From contig JASFAU010000001.1 in NCBI GenBank assembly GCA_039704465.1, forward strand, positions 1,426,001-1,490,000: 64,000 nucleotides of DNA. The letters run 5' to 3'. Below are positions 2,663 through 21,146 of this stretch, piece after piece. A model generated the notes under the pieces. The model had not been told where the DNA came from. It made no database searches and saw only the letters and a list, made by a program, of their open reading frames with translations. The position numbers and the translations under genes were made by a program. Positions within the stretch are counted from its first letter, which is position 1. Every line of letters begins with the position of its first letter. The DNA is from Plasmodiophora brassicae (Eukaryota > Endomyxa > Phytomyxea > Plasmodiophorida > Plasmodiophoridae).

Positions 2663-4451
2663 CTAGGCCACACCGGCCAGCTTCTTCTGTTGAGCTTGCT
2701 TTTCAAGCTGGTCCCACATTTCTTCCCGCTTCTTGGATAGCTCCGCGTTGCTTGATGTTTCCTCTGTGTACTGGTCGCGGCACCGTCAGACCTGCTGGAA
2801 ACGAATTCATCGGTCGTAAGTTACCTTCTTCGATCGCGAGTCAAACAGGTCTGAGTCCATCTCCATAAACATGCGGATGACGTTGAACGTAAGAGAATGA
2901 ACCGTTGAGTTCCAGTGCTTCTTGCTGTTCGCATGCAATGCCGGGTACAGAATGGGTAGGATTCGCTTGCGGAAATCGGTCGTCAGCGAGGATATATATT
3001 CGTTGTTCCACATGAAAAGCGCACGCTCAGCAACCTGCAGTCGGATTGAGTGTCCCCAGTCAGAAACAGCAACATCTATCACAAACCTGGAAATGTGGGC
3101 TCGCAATCGACTTGGCAATTTGTCTAAACAGTGGGTCAATGACCAGCTGGAATTGATCCGGCTGCGTCAGCTCCAGAATTTCTTCAAGTTCGTTGAGGAA
3201 GAGCACTTCTTTGGAGCTATTGGTTATCGGCCAATATTGCAGAATTCCTAGAATGAGAGTAGGTGCCAGGAGAGGATCCTTGTCGATGAATTGCGTTACA
3301 CAGTAGGCCAGCTGCTGGTGAAACAGAGCAAGCATCCGCACCTGGATACCACCCGTTAAAAGCTGTTCAGTTCTCAGTCTTGTCGCCCAACCTTATGAAG
3401 TGGGATAAGGACGTTCTTAAGAAACCTCTTATGCTCCTCTTTGAGGGGTAAAGCGAACCCATTGATGATCGAGCCAAGAATTTCAAGAAGTTCACCGACG
3501 CCGTTGTGCCTTTCGCTGTCATAAATGAACGTAAAGAACACGTTGTTGATCGCCTTCCGGATAAAGGACCTCAGGGACATAAATTTGCCATATATCCTGC
3601 ATGGGCGTGTCAGCTGACATAAGGAGACAGGAAGCGTAGTCGGACCGATGCAAGATTGTCTTGAGATAATCTCTTTCGCGGGGGTCTTCGGACATAAACA
3701 AGTCCAGGATACGAAGAACAAATGGGCCGTTGATGTACTTTTTGACCAATTTCGTATCGGTGTCGGACGAGACAACGAATCTGAATTTGAAGAATGAGCT
3801 CAGTGACACTTGAACGGCAATGTTTGGTAGACCTGAGGAGGAATTCATATACAATCTGCAGATGAGCCCACGCTGGATCCAGAACGGGGTCGTCTTCCTC
3901 AGGGTCCCAAACAGCATCAGTGGGTGACGGCGGAAGAGCTCTGAATAAATTCGCCTGAATCATATTGATGATCTCTTGAAGGACAGCCTCAGAGAACCAG
4001 GCTTTTGTTGTGCCTGCGGAACCCATTGTCAGGAACTAGCTTTTCATGGCGGCAGCCAACACGGAAAGCTGACTGATATGGTCGACAAGTTCCAGGAGAA
4101 CCTGACGTTTCATCTCCTTCCCAAGATTGTCCTTGCCAGGGTCCGAGGCCGGTGAAAAGTCGAAAACAATTGAACAGAGTTTGAGCTTCTTGATCATCAG
4201 AGCCTGCCTCTCCGAGGCAGGACACTCACGGAACGAAGGTAACGGCTGCAGTAAATCCTTTTTGTTGAGAGCACCTAAATAACATCAGAATCCTGATACC
4301 GATACCAGGCGCGATTCTCCATCATACCATCGCCGGAATGTGCACCTCCCGATGCGCCACGCTGGAGCGACCCACTGCCGCTACCAACGCCCAGCGACGA
4401 TTCTTTCGAGAATCGTCGCTTGAATGTCTGCAGTACGCCCTTCATAGCCAT
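2663..4451 (-). CDS. PP2A regulatory subunit, B56 (B') family
   Basis: A B-type regulatory subunit that directs the PP2A A/C core to its substrates. The frames match the B56 HEAT-like repeat domain end to end. They include [82 protein letters not shown] and [14 protein letters not shown]. The protein ends in a short charged helix rich in K, E and Q. I see about six short introns. One at the N-terminus (near 4270-4340, about 66 nt) joins GASGG to ALNKKDLLQ. The start is the ATG in a GCCATGG context at 4449-4451, with a second Met two codons later. It is divergent from the HEAT gene, with about 450 bp of shared upstream DNA. Confidence 0.93.
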
Positions 4452-11312: not shown

Positions 11313-11785
11313 CTCGTAGCTGCTGCTGCTGTTGCTGCTGGCAACCGTCCCAGACGAAGTCAACCGCGACGAGTTACTGCGAACCGCCCCAAAAAGTGGA
11401 ACGTTGAAAAATGTGTTTTTTTGGGGGTGCCCGCAGCCGCCACTGGCCGTGCTGGCGACGGCGGCAGATGATTGCGTCCTGCCACTTGTAGGGACCGGGA
11501 GGGTGGCGGGCTGGGATGCCGCGTGCGCAGCAGTCATCACGGCGTCGGGCAGGGGGTTGGCACACCCACCCACCCACCGCTCGTCCGTGTTTGTTCGCGA
11601 CGACTGTCCGCGCAGCCGCTGATGGATCGGACCGCATGGGCGCCCGGCAGAGCGCGATTATTAAAACGAAAACGGGCCGCAGTGGCTTTCGACCATGGGC
11701 CCCATGATACGGCTACGCCACCTGGCGCGTACTATCTTGACGTTGCACACGGGTGGCATTTGGCGGCGCCAGCGGCCGTAAATAA
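11313..11785. other. Intergenic, no gene seen
   Basis: Between the small membrane protein and the transposon. It contains a short GCT/GTT trinucleotide run near 11320-11340, a T-run near 11410 and GC-rich DNA with open frames on both strands that show no domain. The ATAA at 11782-11785 is the left target-site duplication of the outer transposon. Confidence 0.4.
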
Positions 11786-11801
11786 CCCCAAACTCCGTGG
11801 A
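11786..11801 (+). repeat. Outer element terminal inverted repeat, left
   Basis: CCCCAAACTCCGTGGA, the exact inverse of 17929-17944. It is followed at once by the near-palindrome ATGACATACTATGTCAT. Confidence 0.95.
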
Positions 11802-11870
11802 TGACATACTATGTCATGCAGGGCTCGGGTGTCAGAAATAGCTTTTCCGTTGTATGACATAGTATGTCAT
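11801..11870. repeat. Subterminal near-palindromes, 5' end of outer element
   Basis: Two copies of the 17-bp palindrome (11801-11817 and 11854-11870), about 50 bp apart. The inner element's 5' end has the equivalents at 17387-17403 and, imperfectly, 17440-17456. Confidence 0.85.
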
Positions 11871-12004
11871 GTATGGGGGTGATTTCCGGTGGCCTGTTGC
11901 AACGGCTAGACTGACAACTATGCTGTCTGAATCGGTTCGAATGGCGTAGTCCGCCGTGCGGCGTTACCTGCGGACTTTCGTCCGATTTGAAACCGAGTGG
12001 GTTC

Positions 12005-13620
12005 ATGGAGGAAGACCGCAAAGTGTGGGGAGGCGGCTGTCCGCATGCTGGGGCTGCATATGACGATGATCATGTCCGAGCACAGTGGTCTCAACCCGAC
12101 GACGAGGTCAACGATGATGGGCAAACAATGTACGTAGGTTTTCCGGTATGACTACGAGAGCAGCTGCTCTCGTGGCCGAGTTGGGCGGTCCGGTCTACAT
12201 GATATATGATAACAGGGCCTATGAACACTTCTCGAGCGAAGCAAGTTTACAGTGTCGATGCATGGCTTCTTGCAAATGCGAGGCTCGTCGTACCTATTGT
12301 TTGCGACGACATCAAAATAGTCGTTGAACAAGACGTCCGCGACCAGTCGCATCATGGTGTCGGATGTTAGCAACCTGTGTCTACAGTACTCTTGTTTCTT
12401 TGATGTTCCGGTGCGTTGCCTTCTGACATCCTTGCAGGCCATTGTTTTCGCATCTGTCGACGGCTGTTAACAGCCAACGGGCTGCCGCCCATTTGTCGCG
12501 CTTGAATCCCGATGCGATATGGGCGATGAGCCTCTACGCGACGACGCCGACTGATACCTTCGACCCTGAGTGGTCGGATTCGTATCCACTGGCGTTTGCC
12601 GTCGAGAAACAAGCATGGTGGGATGTACATCGAGCACTTCAGTGCTGTGTGCTGTCTTGGTAACCGTTCCTGGCGTTTTGCGTGAACACGTGAACATTAC
12701 TTGCTTGCTTGTCAGCGCATCGGGGACAAACATGCTGGACCTGCGCAGATCGACGCTTTACCCGTACCCACTCTGGAACACGCGGTTGATCACCACATTG
12801 TTAAGTTCTGGCGACAAATGAAGCAAGCGCTTCTTCAATGCCGAAGCCCACCTCCTGCCCACGAAATCGTCCCAGCCGCTGTCTGGTTCTGAAATCATGT
12901 GAAAGGCGGCCAGGACGTTGTCTCGAGAGAGAGAGAGATGAACAATGTTAAGGTATGCAAATACCGCGATGTATGAGATCCATTACTGAACAGTGGCACC
13001 AGGTCGATTTCCGGCGACCGTCCCAAGACGTTAAATTGGCAACGGCTTTGTTTCGTGTGCATGCTAAATGCGCACGAGCTGTGGCGTCTGCAGCAGCTGC
13101 AATCCCGTATTGCCGATGTGTCCAGTTTCGACAAATGGAAACATTTGTTGAACGATGAGGGTCCTTCAAATATTTTCTTCGGCTGGCCTGCCTGAGTGCC
13201 TTCTGAATTGCAGCGTGCAGCAGAGGCAGCTGACAATCCAGTGCCGCTCCTCCAGCCACCTAAGCGGAATCGTCGGTTGTTCTTCCTGACTGAGGACGGT
13301 CGCGCGCTCCGTTTCAGACAGGGCATACGTTGTCCAGCGCTCTGGCAATAAGGGGGATGTTTACTGGGACGTCAATATCGGGAACCGAATGGGACATGTC
13401 GACAATGCAGCACGACGGTGTGGTGCAGCATTTGCCAAGTGCCGTTATGCAAGACGAGATTCGGTTCAAATACGTTATCATGCTTCGACAGATTCCATGA
13501 TCCCGGTGATGTCAACCTGTCTGTCCAGTTCCGCCCTGACAGTCGGACCGGGGAACGTGTATTCGACTTGGGCGTTCTGACGAACGATCGCCGTCCTCTC
13601 CTGAAGGTGGTTTGGACGCA
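12005..13620 (+). pseudogene. Decayed transposase of the outer transposon (continues at 17476-17621)
   Basis: The same gene as the inner transposase, on the plus strand, starting with the matching ATG at 12005. It has lost a 21-bp in-frame piece near 12520 (equivalent to NYIRGLW) and about 1.5 kb at 12640-12650. The latter removes the D-D part of the transposase domain, the SAP domain and most of the nuclease. After that the frame is shifted and contains stops (for example near 12888). The Cys-rich tail is still recognisable near 13370-13540. The inner element inserted at 13621; the remaining codons and an equivalent stop lie at 17476-17621. Confidence 0.88.
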
Positions 13621-13624
13621 TTAC

Positions 13625-13640
13625 CCCCAAACTCCGTGGA
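13625..13640 (+). repeat. Inner element terminal inverted repeat, left (3' end of its gene)
   Basis: CCCCAAACTCCGTGGA after TTAC at 13621-13624. The subterminal sequence (13641-13665) matches the outer element's right end, so each element has two distinguishable ends. Confidence 0.95.
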
Positions 13641-13884
13641 TTATGTCATATAATATGACATGCATGTTTGACAGGATGTAGCGAAAAATGAGGACCTTGG
13701 AGGCAAACGGTAGCTTTCATCCTGGATAGTCCATTCCAGCCTCCACCTCGTCCCGAAGGTTCGGACTCCTGTCGACATTGTGGTTCATTCCAGTGCTCTC
13801 ACGAAATCAGGCTCTCCCATGCTTCTATTTTGGGTGCATATGACATAGTATGTCATGCAAAGGCAGCATGACATAGTATGTCAT
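13640..13884. repeat. Subterminal near-palindromes, 3' end of inner element
   Basis: An AT-rich palindrome at about 13641-13662, then two copies of ATGACATAGTATGTCAT (13840-13856 and 13868-13884), each a perfect inverted repeat around one central base. The matching end of the outer element has the same set on the other strand (17685-17701, 17713-17729, 17908-17926). Repeated palindromes inside transposon ends usually act as transposase binding sites; that role is inferred here. Confidence 0.85.
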
Positions 13885-13947
13885 GCAACACGCTTTTGCC
13901 TGTATTGATACTCTGGTGCATTCTCAAGTGGATCAAAGGGGATACGA

Positions 13948-16900
13948 TCAACGACTGGACTGCGAGCGTGTCACTGGTCCACGCGAGCGGCTTCCGGAAC
14001 GATTGCTTGCCGGGTTCTCCGAAGGTAAATTGGCCACATTGTGTCGTGGGCGCCCGCCGATGGACTGCACTGTAGGTCCTCCACTTGCAAGCAGTAATGC
14101 GTCCAAACCACCCGCAGGAGACGTCGGCGATCGTTCGTCAGAACGTCCACGTCGACCGAATGCTCGTTCCCCGGTCCGACTGTCAGGACGGAACTGAACA
14201 GACAGGTTGACCTCATCGGGATCATGGAATCTGTCGAAGCACGATAAGGTATTCGAACCGAATCTCGTCTTGCATAACGGCACTTGGCAAATGCTGCACC
14301 ACACAGTCGTGTTGCATTGTCGACATGTCCCATTCGGTTCCCGATATTGACACAGTAAACATGCTCCCTTATTGCCGGATCGCTGGACATGTATGCCCTG
14401 TCTGAAACGGAGCGCGCGACCGTCCTCAGTCAGGAAGAACAACCGACGATTCCGCTTCGGCGGTTGGAGGAGCGGCACCGGATCGTCAGCTGGATCTGCT
14501 GCACGCTGCAATTCAGAAGGCACCCAGTCACGGCAGGCCAGCCGAAGAAAATGTTTGAACGACCCCTCATCGTTCAACAAATGTTTCCATTTGTCGAAAC
14601 TGGACACATCGGCAATACGGGATTGCAGCTGCAGCAGACGCCACAGCTTGTGTGCATTTAGCATGCACACGAAACAAAGCCGCTGCCAAATGTATGCGCG
14701 TGGGGACAGCCGCCGGAAATCGACCTGGTGCCACTGTTCAGTAATGGACCTCATACATCGCTATTTGCATACCTTAACATTTTTCATCTCTCGAGAGACA
14801 ACGTCCTGGCCGCCTTTCACGTGGTTCCAAAAGGCAACCACGGCTGGGACGATTTCGTGGGCAGGAGGTGGCCCCCCCGGCATGTGAAGAAGCGCTTGCT
14901 TCATTTGCCGCCAGAACTTAACAGTGTGGTGATCAACCGCGTGTTCCAGAGTGGACACGGGTAAAGCGTCGATCTGAGCAGGTCCAGCATGTTCGTCCAC
15001 GATGCGCTGACAAGCAAGCAGGTAATGTTCACGAAAATCGTCAGGAACGGTTACCAAGACAGCATACAGCACAGTAACCGTATCGGCAACGACATACAAG
15101 GTTGCGGAAACGTTCAGAACAGCGGCATGGTGAATAACCTGGCATCGGTGTGCGGGATCAGGGATTAGCGCTTCGAAATCGGCATCGCCAGCAATGCAAT
15201 CCGTAAATCGACTGTTTGCATCAAGATGTCGATCACGAAGATCATCGAATGTCGCGAGTGTAGCATGAGACGTCTTAGTTTTGACTTCAACAGCAGCGAA
15301 AATATTCGTATCAGGATAACGACGATCAATCAGGTGGATGACGCCATCCGGCGAGGTTGCCAATCTAGTGTACTGCGACCGTGATGGCCGAACAAGACCC
15401 CTGCGCAGCGACAAATGCAGACGATGGTGTTTGCCGAACTCCTCGAAAAAGTGTCCCAAACCGTTGATGACGTTCAGTTCGTTGGCGGAGCCGACCTTGG
15501 TGGAACTGGAGACGAACGGCTTCAGCCACCACCGCTTCATTAGCAGTGGCAGACCTTCCAATGGCACAGACGGAAGACCCAGTATGCGGTCAATCAGTTG
15601 GGATTTGCGCATTGTACTGGCACCTTCATCAGCATCGCGGTCTCTCAGAATTTGGCGGAGCCTGGAAACGGTCAAATTCTTGAGTCGCGCCTGTGTGTAC
15701 GGAGGGTGGAACCTGTCACATGGGCGAATGCCGATGATGTCCAGGATGTACATGTGATCAGGGGCAAGTTCATTTTGGAAGACTTTCAGCGCGGTGAACG
15801 ATATTGTACTGGTGATGGTCTCGATCCTTATAAAGAACCATTCTACACCTCCCTGACTCCTCGTCAATGAAGCCGTGTGCGTGTCGAGATGACGAACAAG
15901 CGGTTCGTCTTCCGGTTCCTCATTGTGAGTCATCATCGTTTTTGGTTCCAGTATGAACCGGGTCTGCGATAGCCATGGGATGTTTGTATACATCAGTGCC
16001 ACCGAGCCGCCTCCAGTTCGATAGGCAAACGACTTGGCACTGTTGCACACGGCCACATAAAGGCTCTTCGCGCCATCTTCTTCAACGACAATCTGCGTCG
16101 ATTTGGGACGCGATGATCCATAGTGGAACGGTGCGCCGTCTCCACGTTTCTGCGTTCCAACAATCAAGCCACCCTTGTCCTCGATGGACTGTTTCAAAGC
16201 AGCGCGTAGGTAACCTCGGTCCAGGGCTATCACAGTCCGATGCAGGTGGACATGGTCATCGTGATCAGCTCCAACAAGTCGCCGAAGCAGCACATCAACG
16301 GTCTGAACCGGCGTCTCGGACCGACCGCTCATCCTTAAACACATCACTGTGCCCAGGAGTACACAAACACAACCGGTTGAAGTTGGCCCGAAGGTCTTCT
16401 TCGGGTTGTTGTGCCTTGGAAATCCAAGAGTCTCGACGAGCGCAGAGCGGAGTCGGTACTGGTCATCATCGATAGACAGGACCGATTTTCCAGGTACGTA
16501 GAGCAGCCTAGAGAAGAAGTTCCCGATAGAAGATTCCGCTTCGCGGATTGATCGATCTTCAGCGAACGGCTGGGACCAAACCATAAGTCCAGAAGCGGTA
16601 TCAGTTCGAGTCTGAAGTGCTCGATGTACATCCCACCACGCTTGTTTCTCGACGGCAGACGCCAGTGGATACGAATCCGACCACTCAGGGTCGAAGATAT
16701 CAGTCGGCGTCGTCGCGTAGACGCTCATCGCCCAAAGTCCCCGGATATAATTCCATATCGCATCAGGATTCAAGCGCGACAAATGGGCGGCAGCCCGCTG
16801 GCTGTTAACAGCCGTCGACAGATGCGAAAACAATGGCCTGAAAGGATGTCAGAAGGCAACGCACCGGAACATCAAAGAAACAAGATTACTGTAGACACAG

Positions 16901-17251
16901 GTTGATAACATCCGACACCATGATGCGACTGGTCGCGGACGTCTTGTTCAGCGAATGTTTTACATTGTCGCAAACAATAGGTACGACAAGCCTCGCATTT
17001 GCAAGAAGCCATGCATCGACAGTGTTAACGTGGATGCCTAAGCCTGCAAACGCATCGCTAGACAAGTGTTCCCAGACCCTGTTACCATATCAGCAAAGCC
17101 GCACTCATACCGGAAAACCTACGTACATTGTTTGTCCATCATCGTTGACCTCGTCGTTGGGCTGAGACCACTGTGCTCGGACATGATCATCGTCATATGC
17201 AGCTCGCAGCATGCGGACCGCCGCCTCCCACACTTCGACGTCTTCCTCCAT
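13948..17251 (-). CDS. piggyBac-like transposase with inserted SAP and YqaJ-type PD-(D/E)XK nuclease domains
   Basis: Four exons: 17127-17251, 16890-17078, 14773-16837 and 13948-14733, with introns of 48, 52 and 39 nt. The total is 3,165 nt, giving 1,054 residues. piggyBac-like signs are an LSIDDDQY motif (about D228-230), ALDRGYL (D311), FWNHVKGGQD (D783), and a C-terminal cluster C918/C921, C930/C933, C939/C942, C947, C958/H963 like the piggyBac Cys-rich DNA-binding domain. D228 to D311 has about the family spacing, but D311 to D783 is some 370 residues too long. That extra part holds a SAP-like helix pair (about 491-526, LKNLTVSRLRQIL...SQLIDRI) and a nuclease signature: E558 (VGSANE), D602 (SPDG), E622-x-K624 (VEVKTK). 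The 39-nt third intron was chosen over a 60-nt alternative because it keeps the KGGxD motif. Joins and residue numbers are predictions. Confidence 0.82.
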
Positions 17252-17455
17252 GGAACCCACTCGGTTTCAAATCGGACGAAAGTCCGCAGATAACGCCGCA
17301 CGGGGGACTGCGGCTTTCGAACCGATTCAGACAGCATAGTTGTCAGTCTAGCCGTTGCAACAGGCCACCGGAAATCACCCCCATACATGACATACTATGT
17401 CATATACCGGAAAAGCTATTTTCGACACCCGAGCCCTGCATGACATAGTATGACA

Positions 17456-17471
17456 TCCACGGAGTTTGGGG
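17456..17471 (-). repeat. Inner element terminal inverted repeat, right (5' end of its gene)
   Basis: TCCACGGAGTTTGGGG, followed by TTAC at 17472-17475. The subterminal sequence matches the outer element's left end. Confidence 0.95.
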
Positions 17472-17928
17472 TTACTGCTTGCAAGTGGAGGACCTACAGT
17501 GCAGTCCATCGGCGGACGCCGACGACACGATGTGGCCACTTTACCCTCGGAAAACCCGGCAAGCAATCGCTCCGGACGCCGCTCGCGTGGACCAGTGACA
17601 CGCTCGCAGTCCAGTCGATGATCGCATCCCCTTTGATCTTCTTGAGAATGCACCAGAGTATCAATACAGGCAAAAGTGTGTTGCATGACATACTATGTCA
17701 TGCTGCCTTTGCATGACATACTATGTCATATGCACCCAAAATAGAAGCATGGGAGAGCCTGATTTCGTGAGAGCACTGGAACGAAACACAACGTCGACAG
17801 GAGTCCGAACCTTCGGGGCGAGGTGGAGGCTGGCATGGACTATTCAGGATGGAAGCTACCATTCGCCTCCAAGGTCCTCATTTTTCGCTACGTCCTGCCA
17901 AACATGCATGTCATATTATATGACATAA

Positions 17929-17944
17929 TCCACGGAGTTTGGGG
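17929..17944 (-). repeat. Outer element terminal inverted repeat, right
   Basis: TCCACGGAGTTTGGGG, preceded by an AT-rich palindrome (about 17908-17926) and followed by the ATAA duplication at 17945-17948. Confidence 0.95.
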
Positions 17945-18013
17945 ATAACAGAGGAACGGCGCCAGAAGCCGTGACGTGGCCGCTCTGCGCGGAACGTCGG
18001 TCGTCGCCGCGCC

Positions 18014-18875: not shown

Positions 18876-19045
18876 CAAGCGGATGGCTCGCTGAATACAT
18901 GCGTCTACCTACGTGGCAGGTCACCACCGCTGCCTGGTCTGGATCCTACTAGCCGGTCCGTTAAGCGCAGGACGGTCCGTTTGATCTTCACCGCCCATGC
19001 TGCCCGTCAGGAGGGCGAATCCTAATCGCGCATAGGCGGACGACG

Positions 19046-20086
19046 ATGTCCAGCGGGTACACGTCGCCCGGGGCCATCATGCCGACGCCGCTACGCCTGC
19101 ACGTAGACGCCATCCTGAACCTGCTAGGCGCCGGGCGCGACGTGGCCCGCCTCCGGCGCGTCTGCCGCCTGTTCGAACAGATCGGGCGCAGCGTCCTGGG
19201 ACAACGCGGCCTGTGCGTCATCGTGGCCGGCGACCAGGACGTTGTCGACGTGTTCGACCGCACGAAACGATCCTGGACGCACCTGTCACCCCTGCCTCTC
19301 AACACGACCGACCACACGCGCGTCATCGCGTATCAGGGGCGTATACTCGTGGCGGCTGTCGAGGCCATCACCGAACGCTCGCTCTGTGTTACGTACGACG
19401 CGGCCGCGTCGCAGTGGGTCCCGATTCACAATCAGACGTTGATCAACGGGACACAGTGCGGTGCCACGTTGTCGTGCCGGCCCGATGGATCCCGCCTGAT
19501 CGCCATCGACTGCAGGCGGGTCCAGGAATGGTTGCCGTCGACCGGCACCTGGCGGCGGCTGCCCGTCCAGCAGCAGCCGCGATCGTTCTCGGCGTGCCAG
19601 TGGCTGCCGATTGACGGCCAGGAACGGTTGGTGTCGGTTGGTGGCCGCGACGCCAAGCAGGTCTCCAGCTGCGCCTGCGAATACCTGGACGATGATCGGC
19701 AGGCATGGGTGGCGTTGCCGTCGTTAGCCGTCGGCCGTGTGTTCTCCGGGAGCACGGTCTGGCAAGGGCGCTTGGTCGTTGCCGGGGGCATTACCAAGGT
19801 CGATGACGTCGAGGTCAGCCTGTGCAATGTGATGGTGTTCGGCCCGGATGGTTGGGAGGAGTTCCCGATGATCGACAGCCAGTACCCGCAGGACGTCTTC
19901 GTCGTCGACGGGAACGTCTTGATGATGAGGACGGTCCAGGCGGACCATGCGTACGAGGAGTCGCTGTGGGAGTGGATGCCGGAGGTGAACGCCTGGCGTC
20001 AGCACGTTCCACCGGCGCGCATGTACCACATCGGCATTGGCGCCAACGTCGTCGTGCTCCCTGCCGCTGCCCTGAATTTGCAATAG
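19046..20086 (+). CDS. F-box-like / kelch-repeat protein
   Basis: Single exon of 346 codons. The N-terminus (LRLHVDAILNLLGAGRDVARLRRVCRLF) has the hydrophobic helix pattern of an F-box. It is followed by about six kelch-type blades, visible as GG or RVI then W, for example VVDVFDRTKRSWTHLSPLP, RLVSVGGRDAKQ, RQAWVALPSLAVGR and RLVVAGGITKVDD. Such proteins usually act as substrate receptors of SCF ubiquitin ligases, which is an inference here. An alternative start at Met12 (19079) would begin right before the F-box-like helix. Codon use is GC-rich like the neighbours, and no intron is needed. Confidence 0.78.
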   Translation: MSSGYTSPGAIMPTPLRLHVDAILNLLGAGRDVARLRRVCRLFEQIGRSVLGQRGLCVIVAGDQDVVDVFDRTKRSWTHLSPLPLNTTDHTRVIAYQGRILVAAVEAITERSLCVTYDAAASQWVPIHNQTLINGTQCGATLSCRPDGSRLIAIDCRRVQEWLPSTGTWRRLPVQQQPRSFSACQWLPIDGQERLVSVGGRDAKQVSSCACEYLDDDRQAWVALPSLAVGRVFSGSTVWQGRLVVAGGITKVDDVEVSLCNVMVFGPDGWEEFPMIDSQYPQDVFVVDGNVLMMRTVQADHAYEESLWEWMPEVNAWRQHVPPARMYHIGIGANVVVLPAAALNLQ

Positions 20087-20291
20087 ACGGTCGAACATAC
20101 TAAACAGCATAGCTGACGATGTGTAATGCAGAGTGGCCTTGGGGACTGTTTCCCACTGGCGACCTGTCGTGAACCATATCACGGTGCCCCAGGTGGCAGG
20201 CCTGGCTGCTACTATACCACGTACTGCTGATGACGGGCCGGGTGATCTCGGTCACAGAGATATCCTGCGCTTGCAAACAGACGCCAGCCCG

Positions 20292-21146
20292 ATGGACGTC
20301 GACGTGTACTTCGAGCAGCAGGACGGTTCACAGTTATGCGCCGTGCACTGCGTTAATAACCTGCTGCAGGGGGCCGTGTTTACCGAGTTGGATTTCGCAG
20401 CCATCGGTCAGCGACCGTGCTCTGTGAACGGACGCACGCCGGTTCGTTGACCGAAGCTATGTAGCCCTGGACATCAACCGGCAAGAGTCCGAGCTGATGG
20501 GCAATTCAGTCCAGCCCGATATTGACGAGCTTCCCAACGTGAGCATGAGCGGGGAATTCTCGATTCAAGGTATCCCATCCCCAAGGCGTTATTGCATGTG
20601 GGGAACCTTAGACGTTCATCGGCGCAGTCATTAGCAATGCCATGCGGATCATGAATGTCGTGCTAGAACGCTGCCGTATGCAGGGATCCATGTGCTGGCC
20701 CGATGCGACAGGTCGTTGACTGTGGTGTAAACGTAGGTGACTTCAGCGCAGCCGCGCAGGAAGACGCATTCATCATCAACCGGGAGGACCACTGGGTCAG
20801 TGCGAGACGGATCGCCGGATGCTGGGTCTGTTTCGACTCGCTGCAGGACCGCCCAGTAAGGTGCTCAGAAGTATACCTCGAAGCACTGCTCCACCAGATG
20901 CACAACGAAGGTCAGTGCATGTCCCAACTCGGTAGATCTGCAGTTGACGTGTACGCCACAGGCGCATCCATATTTGCGGTTAGAGGGCTCACCTATCAAC
21001 AACCGGTTGCTGAAGGGCGAGGGATTCTGATACCCGTCTCTGCAATAACTGGCCCGTCAAGAGAGGGAACACCCCTGTCGCGCCCGCAGTCACCAGGTGC
21101 TGACAACGACCTAGAACTCGCAATTGCCTTGTCGCTTCAGCAATGA
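20292..21146 (+). CDS. Josephin-domain deubiquitinase, ataxin-3-like, with C-terminal UIM
   Basis: Cysteine protease that cleaves ubiquitin. The N-terminus reads VYFEQQDGSQLCAVHCVNNL, with the catalytic Cys in LCAVHC as in ataxin-3. Later exons give SMSGEFSIQ and VISNAMRIMNV, then REDHWVSARR with the catalytic His. The third catalytic position is Asp (CFDSL) where ataxin-3 has Asn (NLNSL). Four GT-AG introns were fitted, joining FAAI to ALDINRQES, GEFSIQ to the TFIGAV region, LERC to DFSAAAQ, and HNEG to ASIFAVRG. The tail DNDLELAIALSLQQ is a textbook ubiquitin-interacting motif just before the stop. It converges on the carrier gene, with 8 bp between stops. Confidence 0.9.

Follow-up and report, generated by a model that had tools for sequence, protein, structure and literature searches.

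A piggyBac-superfamily transposon of Plasmodiophora brassicae whose transposase holds a nuclease between its second and third catalytic aspartates

The piggyBac transposon is widely used in genome engineering because it excises seamlessly. The locus described here raises the question of whether a transposase of this superfamily can carry a second nuclease within its catalytic core and, if so, what that nuclease would do. The locus lies in a window of 64,000 nt from Plasmodiophora brassicae (assembly GCA_039704465.1, contig JASFAU010000001.1, positions 1,426,001-1,490,000, forward strand), and "the window" refers to this whole stretch throughout. A sequence-only reading had proposed a gene at 13948-17251 for a piggyBac-type transposase that holds a SAP motif and a YqaJ-type nuclease. 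From its N-TA-N target duplications, its invariant nuclease residues and the dN/dS ratio of the nuclease, we conclude that the element is a transposon of the piggyBac superfamily whose transposase carries a nuclease between its second and third catalytic Asp.

Gene model and catalytic layout

The gene is on the minus strand, with its ATG at 17251 and a stop codon that ends at 13948, and its four exons encode 1051 residues. This model is a prediction from the reading frame and GT-AG splice sites. The location and the three introns of the sequence-only reading were recovered in the model, with GT-AG boundaries for all three introns (17126-17079, 16898-16838 and 14772-14734). The window copy belongs to family A; families B-D, the locus L026 and the database protein P0001, mentioned in the list below, are relatives. 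The features are as follows.

17127..17251, minus strand: exon 1, from reading frame and GT-AG sites
16899..17078, minus strand: exon 2, from reading frame and GT-AG sites
14773..16837, minus strand: exon 3, with the three catalytic Asp, the SAP motif and the nuclease in one open frame (688 codons)
13948..14733, minus strand: exon 4, with the C-terminal part, Cys-rich domain and tail, from reading frame and GT-AG sites
16468..16470, minus strand: D225, first catalytic Asp (SIDDDQYRL), aligned by hhalign on piggyBac D268 and invariant in the 4 rows of alignment A8
16219..16221, minus strand: D308, second catalytic Asp (ALDRGY), aligned by hhalign on piggyBac D346 and invariant in alignments A2 and A8
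15580..15684, minus strand: SAP motif, residues 487-521, sub-threshold here and above the cut-off in P0001 and L026
15001..15537, minus strand: YqaJ/lambda-exonuclease-type nuclease, about residues 536-714, with E555, D599, E619, K621 and Q668, from invariant residues and a profile match to family D
14803..14805, minus strand: D780, third catalytic Asp (WNHVKGGQD), aligned by hhalign on piggyBac YNQTKGGVD
14224..14361, minus strand: C-terminal Cys-rich domain, residues 915-960, aligned by hhalign on the piggyBac Cys-rich domain

The codon positions of the nuclease residues within 15001..15537 were verified. D225, D308, the SAP motif, the nuclease and D780 share one uninterrupted frame of 695 codons, while no stop-free run exceeded 287 codons when the element was shuffled 300 times. 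The catalytic residues had been placed in the region of D228, at D311 and at D783, and each was found three residues away from that position. The first spacing had been described as close to that of the family and the second as too long. D225 and D308 are indeed 83 residues apart and D308 and D780 are 472 apart, compared to 78 (D268 to D346) and 101 in piggyBac (PMC7351741). The order in exon 3 agrees with the proposed site of the nuclease between the second and third Asp, and its motifs in the window protein are GSANE at 551, SPDG at 597, VEVK at 618 and RCQVIHH around Q668.

Structure prediction, which had been suggested as a check, was too weak to help in recognising a nuclease fold or an RNase H-like core split by an insertion domain. 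The AlphaFold2 model of the whole exon had a mean pLDDT of 34.5, and the model of the SAP-nuclease part had a mean pLDDT of 53.5. Since the fold of the whole exon was not predicted, the order along the chain is used to place the nuclease tentatively within the complex.

Element ends, target sites and past mobility

The gene is contained in a full-length element, which in turn interrupts a second copy of the same family. The nested arrangement is given below.

13625..17471, minus strand: inner element, a full-length family-A transposon, with terminal inverted repeat (TIR) tips CCCCAAACTCCGTGG at 13625-13639 and 17457-17471
13621..13624, plus strand: target-site duplication TTAC, left copy, from the flanks and an exact paralogous empty site
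17472..17475, plus strand: target-site duplication TTAC, right copy, from the same evidence
11786..17944, no strand given: outer element, an internally deleted family-A copy in the opposite orientation, interrupted by the inner one, from TIR tips and flanks
11786-13624 and 17472-17944, no strand given: the two pieces of the outer element, from inverted-repeat pairing with the inner copy
11782-11785 and 17945-17948, no strand given: ATAA flanks of the outer element, from TIR tips and flanks
13840..13884, no strand given: subterminal palindrome ATGACATAGTATGTCAT, two copies close to one end, with a further copy starting at 17387 close to the opposite end

The inner element has the ends CCCC...GGGG, and the exact tip CCCCAAACTCCGTGG occurs 11 times in the genome, compared to 0 occurrences of the reversed control pattern. 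The empty site around a single TTAC is given by the homologous stretch of the inner element itself. Past mobility is thus established by the nested insertion with its exact empty site together with the identical target duplications. One internal deletion, equivalent to window positions 15073-16611, is common to the outer copy and the copies on C10 and C18; it takes out the first two Asp, the SAP motif and the greater part of the nuclease. Complete target duplications of their own were seen for at least two of these deleted copies (the outer one and that on C10) and, therefore, the deleted derivative was presumably mobilised in trans.

The ends start with CCC in families A, B and C. Identical 4-bp flanks were found in 14 of 15 paired copies (A 3/3, B 5/6, C 6/6), the exception being the C2 copy of family B, with TTAG on one side and CGTC on the other. 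The central TA is present in all 14 confirmed duplications, which gives the pattern N-TA-N, and just three of the 14 are TTAA, with T still favoured at the outer positions (12/28). Among unpaired ends, 7 of 10 have the central TA. For family B, the target-site counts are drawn from 16 of 23 matches to its tip pattern. In Daphnia, 88% of the target sites of the piggyBac element Pokey are TTAA (PMC3849761), and at that rate three or fewer TTAA sites out of 14 would have a probability of 1.7e-8. Palindromes are found near both ends in families A and B and near one end in family C. With at most one mismatch, ATGACATAGTATGTCAT has 8 copies in the window by raw count, all within 11786-17944, and it resembles the palindromic repeat that is bound by the Cys-rich domain of piggyBac (PMC7351741).

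Two other frames were seen in the window, as judged by eye: one at 18965-20086 resembles a kelch/F-box protein and one at 20127-20450 resembles a Josephin-type peptidase.

Related families, piggyBac identity and selection on the nuclease

When this genome (25.3 Mb, 21 contigs) was searched at the protein level, 47 stretches matched, including families B and C, which are about 25-37% identical to the window protein. Copies compared within these families are 98.8-99.7% identical (6 loci of B, 4 of C), which shows that their amplification was recent. The genome holds at least four diverged families with this architecture (A-D), and on other contigs the domain order recurs in B, C and D. Family D is the single place in the genome listed by the YqaJ model. 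At this locus, DDE_Tnp_1_7 scores 24.4 bits against a cut-off of 22.4 and YqaJ scores 34.7 against 22; DRGY lies between the two matches, and KGGVD and Cys pairs follow. The Pfam SAP model had no match at the family-D locus, and the family-D pieces are separated by one in-frame stop and one frame change, which may be introns or decay. Families A-C were linked to family D by profile in the N-terminal part (E 8.3e-4) and in the C-terminal part (E 5.7e-7), with none of 100 shuffles as good in either case.

Three database proteins from elsewhere, on one contig each, share parts of the architecture (P0001, P0002 and P0003, with source labels ena, lgn and jgi); P0001 was matched with an E value of 2.6e-109. 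Their starting points differ: P0001 sets in near the second Asp, P0002 shortly ahead of the SAP motif and P0003 within the nuclease. None of the three therefore shows all three Asp.

The Pfam check suggested by the sequence-only reading had a divided outcome. The window protein matched neither YqaJ nor DDE_Tnp_1_7, and family D passed both cut-offs. DDE_Tnp_1_7 (PF13843) was also not matched in Pfam by any of the four N-terminal pieces of families A-C. In hhalign, the piece of families A-C with the first two Asp aligned with Trichoplusia ni piggyBac so that LSIDDD fell on LTIDEQ and IALDRGY on ITCDNWF (3 of 200 shuffles as good, hhalign probability 1.1%). The third-Asp piece placed WNHVKGGQD on YNQTKGGVD (0/200 shuffles, probability 17.5%), and profile A2 aligned with the Cys-rich domain of piggyBac (0/100 shuffles, probability 4.3%). 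One of the six members of A7 matched the Pfam model zf-Tnp_2 at 2.8e-4. The N-terminal piece of family D, when compared directly to piggyBac and piggyBat, was aligned to the wrong place, although Pfam recognises it. As the hhalign probabilities against piggyBac are low, it is the shuffles and family D that support this relationship. The DDD order, the WNxxKGGxD motif, the Cys-rich domain, the CCC...GGG ends, the 4-bp N-TA-N duplications and the DDE_Tnp_1_7 match of family D together bear out the piggyBac type that had been claimed.

The SAP motif of the window protein scores 15.3 bits against a cut-off of 23.9 (E about 0.016-0.022). The cut-off is exceeded by P0001 (38.4 bits) and L026 (36.2 bits), P0002 is just below it at 22.5, and L029 had no SAP match in Pfam. 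The helix pair described as SAP-like is therefore sub-threshold in the window protein itself and recognised in two relatives. The Pfam YqaJ cut-off was not reached by the window protein, L026, L029, P0001, P0002 or P0003. Five residues, E453, D497, E517, K519 and Q566 in exon-3 numbering, are invariant in the 6 rows of alignment A1 and the 4 rows of A2. We take E, D, ExK and Q to be the catalytic motifs of the YqaJ/lambda-exonuclease family. A nuclease profile made from families A-C and P0001-P0003 matched the YqaJ part of family D in hhalign at an E value of 1.8e-17, with 0 of 200 shuffles as good. The conserved residues and this match agree with the GxANE/SPDG/VEVK signature that had been read as a YqaJ-type nuclease. 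Purifying selection acts on the nuclease, whose dN/dS is 0.19 (187 codons, bootstrap 0.12-0.30); for the part with the first two Asp it is 0.11 (240 codons, bootstrap 0.07-0.18), both values coming from one pair of copies, one of which is interrupted by an insert. We regard it as almost certain that a SAP motif and a nuclease are nested between the second and third Asp of a piggyBac-superfamily transposase.

Families A and B both include copies with internal deletions. The family-B derivatives L023, L024 and L032 (C13, C2 and C7) are without the first two Asp, and their open frames of 558, 443 and 445 codons retain the SAP motif, the nuclease and the third Asp, so that the nuclease is still encoded. 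L029 (C9), also of family B, has a similar frame of 634 codons that is interrupted upstream. A family-B2 copy has an insert of about 2.1 kb in its nuclease region (L053, 3371-5510). Inside or beside the family-B copy of L029 is a frame (2768-4141) that we presume to be like a Gypsy-type retrotransposon integrase, and beside family D is a presumably retroelement-like frame with a chromodomain-like tail (L054, 5496-5999).

Known systems and the role of the nested nuclease

Known systems were compared with the element. Trichoplusia ni piggyBac and piggyBat share its DDD order, the YN/WNxxKGGxD motif, a C-terminal Cys-rich domain, CCC ends, a 4-bp duplication centred on TA and an insertion between the second and third Asp (PMC7351741). 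They differ in having 101 residues there, with a three-stranded insertion domain (372-433), instead of 472 with a SAP motif and a nuclease (PMC7351741), and a strict TTAA rule does not hold here (N-TA-N, 3/14 TTAA). KolobokE is likewise a eukaryotic DDD/E transposon that makes TTAA-type duplications and encodes a lambda-exonuclease-like PD-D/ExK nuclease. However, its nuclease is described as downstream of the transposase domain rather than before the third catalytic residue, and Kolobok has 5'-RR ends and a core that ends in E with C/DxxH, where this element has 5'-CCC and D as the third acid (PMC9587614). ISL2EU, of the PHIS/Harbinger-like superfamily, also encodes a YqaJ exonuclease domain, but as a separate ORF of unknown role, whereas the nuclease described here shares its open frame with D225, D308 and D780; the ISL2EU transposase has THAP/HTH and its target is A|AT|T (PMC4482050, PMC9179366).

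Herpesviruses encode a lambda-type alkaline nuclease. In the Teratorn-like fusions of piggyBac and herpesvirus in fish, a piggyBac-like transposase gene is joined to a larger foreign cargo, but these are whole-element fusions with separate genes, and the account of them names no nuclease inside the transposase (PMC5822658). PiggyMac of Paramecium has a piggyBac-derived core and 4-base sites in which only the central TA is conserved; it is an immobile, domesticated host gene for genome rearrangement, and its accounts name no nested nuclease (PMC3408717, PMC8086355). The sequence-only reading knew of no earlier description, and our search agrees: in the titles and abstracts of the open-access literature searched, subscription journals being mostly outside this scope, we found no account of a YqaJ or lambda-exonuclease domain within a piggyBac transposase, and the papers that name both piggyBac and YqaJ describe no such fusion where these words stand. 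Given ISL2EU, KolobokE and the Teratorn-like elements, a nuclease accompanying a transposase is already known. As far as the searches reach, its nesting inside a piggyBac transposase is apparently undescribed.

Lambda-type exonucleases digest from the 5' end. The solved structure of piggyBac places the insertion domain along the channel in which the target DNA lies, and on excision the transposon ends become hairpins while the donor site is left with 4-nt overhangs (PMC7351741). Based on this channel, on the donor overhangs and on the expected 5' digestion, resection of the donor break appears the most likely role for the nuclease, with the result that repair which restores the lost copy would be favoured; we put the chance of this role at about even. 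End processing, resection and targeting had all been proposed for the nuclease in the sequence-only reading, and each is still a hypothesis. The DDD core would carry out piggyBac-type excision via hairpins and integration at N-TA-N. The nested nuclease would face flanking or target DNA, the transposon ends being shielded as hairpins, and its likely substrate would be the donor break, with the SAP motif keeping hold of this DNA. Resection from the 5' end could then steer repair from seamless re-ligation to homologous repair from the sister or homologue. The identical 4-bp duplications imply complementary donor overhangs, so seamless repair should be possible without a nuclease. The internal deletions in families A and B fit abortive gap repair without proving it, and deletion derivatives arise in ordinary transposons too.

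An alternative is that the SAP-nuclease part serves to capture or open the target, with the SAP motif gripping AT-rich DNA and the nuclease fold, whether or not it is active, helping to widen TTAA to N-TA-N. The low share of TTAA (3 of 14 confirmed duplications, against 88% in Pokey; PMC3849761) and the place of the piggyBac insertion domain along the target channel (PMC7351741) speak for this explanation. It is nonetheless unlikely, since PiggyMac also cleaves at 4-base sites that conserve just the central TA and no such nuclease is named for it (PMC3408717), there is still a preference for T at the outer positions, and invariant catalytic residues would be superfluous for mere binding. Slightly less probable is that the nuclease processes the element's own intermediates by opening or trimming hairpin ends or by removing 5' terminal nucleotides of overhangs. 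piggyBac excision does go via hairpins (PMC7351741), and an unidentified enzyme removes 5' terminal nucleotides after PiggyMac cleavage (PMC3408717), but the piggyBac transposase opens its hairpins by itself (PMC7351741) and the duplications are clean in 14 of 15 cases, so no trimming is visible at integrated ends.

It seems improbable to us that the cassette rides along as a selfish or structural passenger with no catalytic use in transposition. The three family-B derivatives that keep the SAP-nuclease-third-Asp frame without the first two Asp would suit a passenger, yet the catalytic residues are invariant across families that are about 25-37% identical, the nuclease has a dN/dS of 0.19, and nucleases of like kind accompany two other transposon groups. 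An artefact, in which two genes or a chimeric assembly were read as one, is the explanation we hold least probable by far. The gene is joined by reading frame and GT-AG sites only, and the SAP motif and nuclease of the window protein are by themselves below the Pfam thresholds. Independent copies contradict an artefact, as other contigs carry the same order in families B, C and D, and it is found from the second Asp, from the SAP motif and from inside the nuclease, respectively, in P0001, P0002 and P0003.

The full explanation, a piggyBac core with a nested SAP-nuclease that resects the donor break, is therefore our preferred reading, at a probability of roughly 0.5. The nested arrangement is under selection and recurs in several families, suggesting that the element shapes the repair of its own breaks. 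More tentatively, and with the odds somewhat against it, this may be an undescribed piggyBac lineage with a transposase of two active sites, in which DDD catalysis at a relaxed N-TA-N target is combined with an insertion-domain exonuclease that resects within the transpososome, copies being gained by directing host repair.

If this is true, it would show that large catalytic insertions can be accommodated and put to use between the second and third Asp, and the element would offer a direct way to study how copies are gained in cut-and-paste transposition. The N-TA-N target, relaxed from TTAA, links mobile piggyBac elements to the TA-centred cleavage of the ciliate PiggyMac. The finding would also add a third transposon superfamily with such a nuclease after KolobokE and ISL2EU, which would point to a general strategy, and a shared reason for these nucleases in Kolobok, ISL2EU and piggyBac becomes testable.
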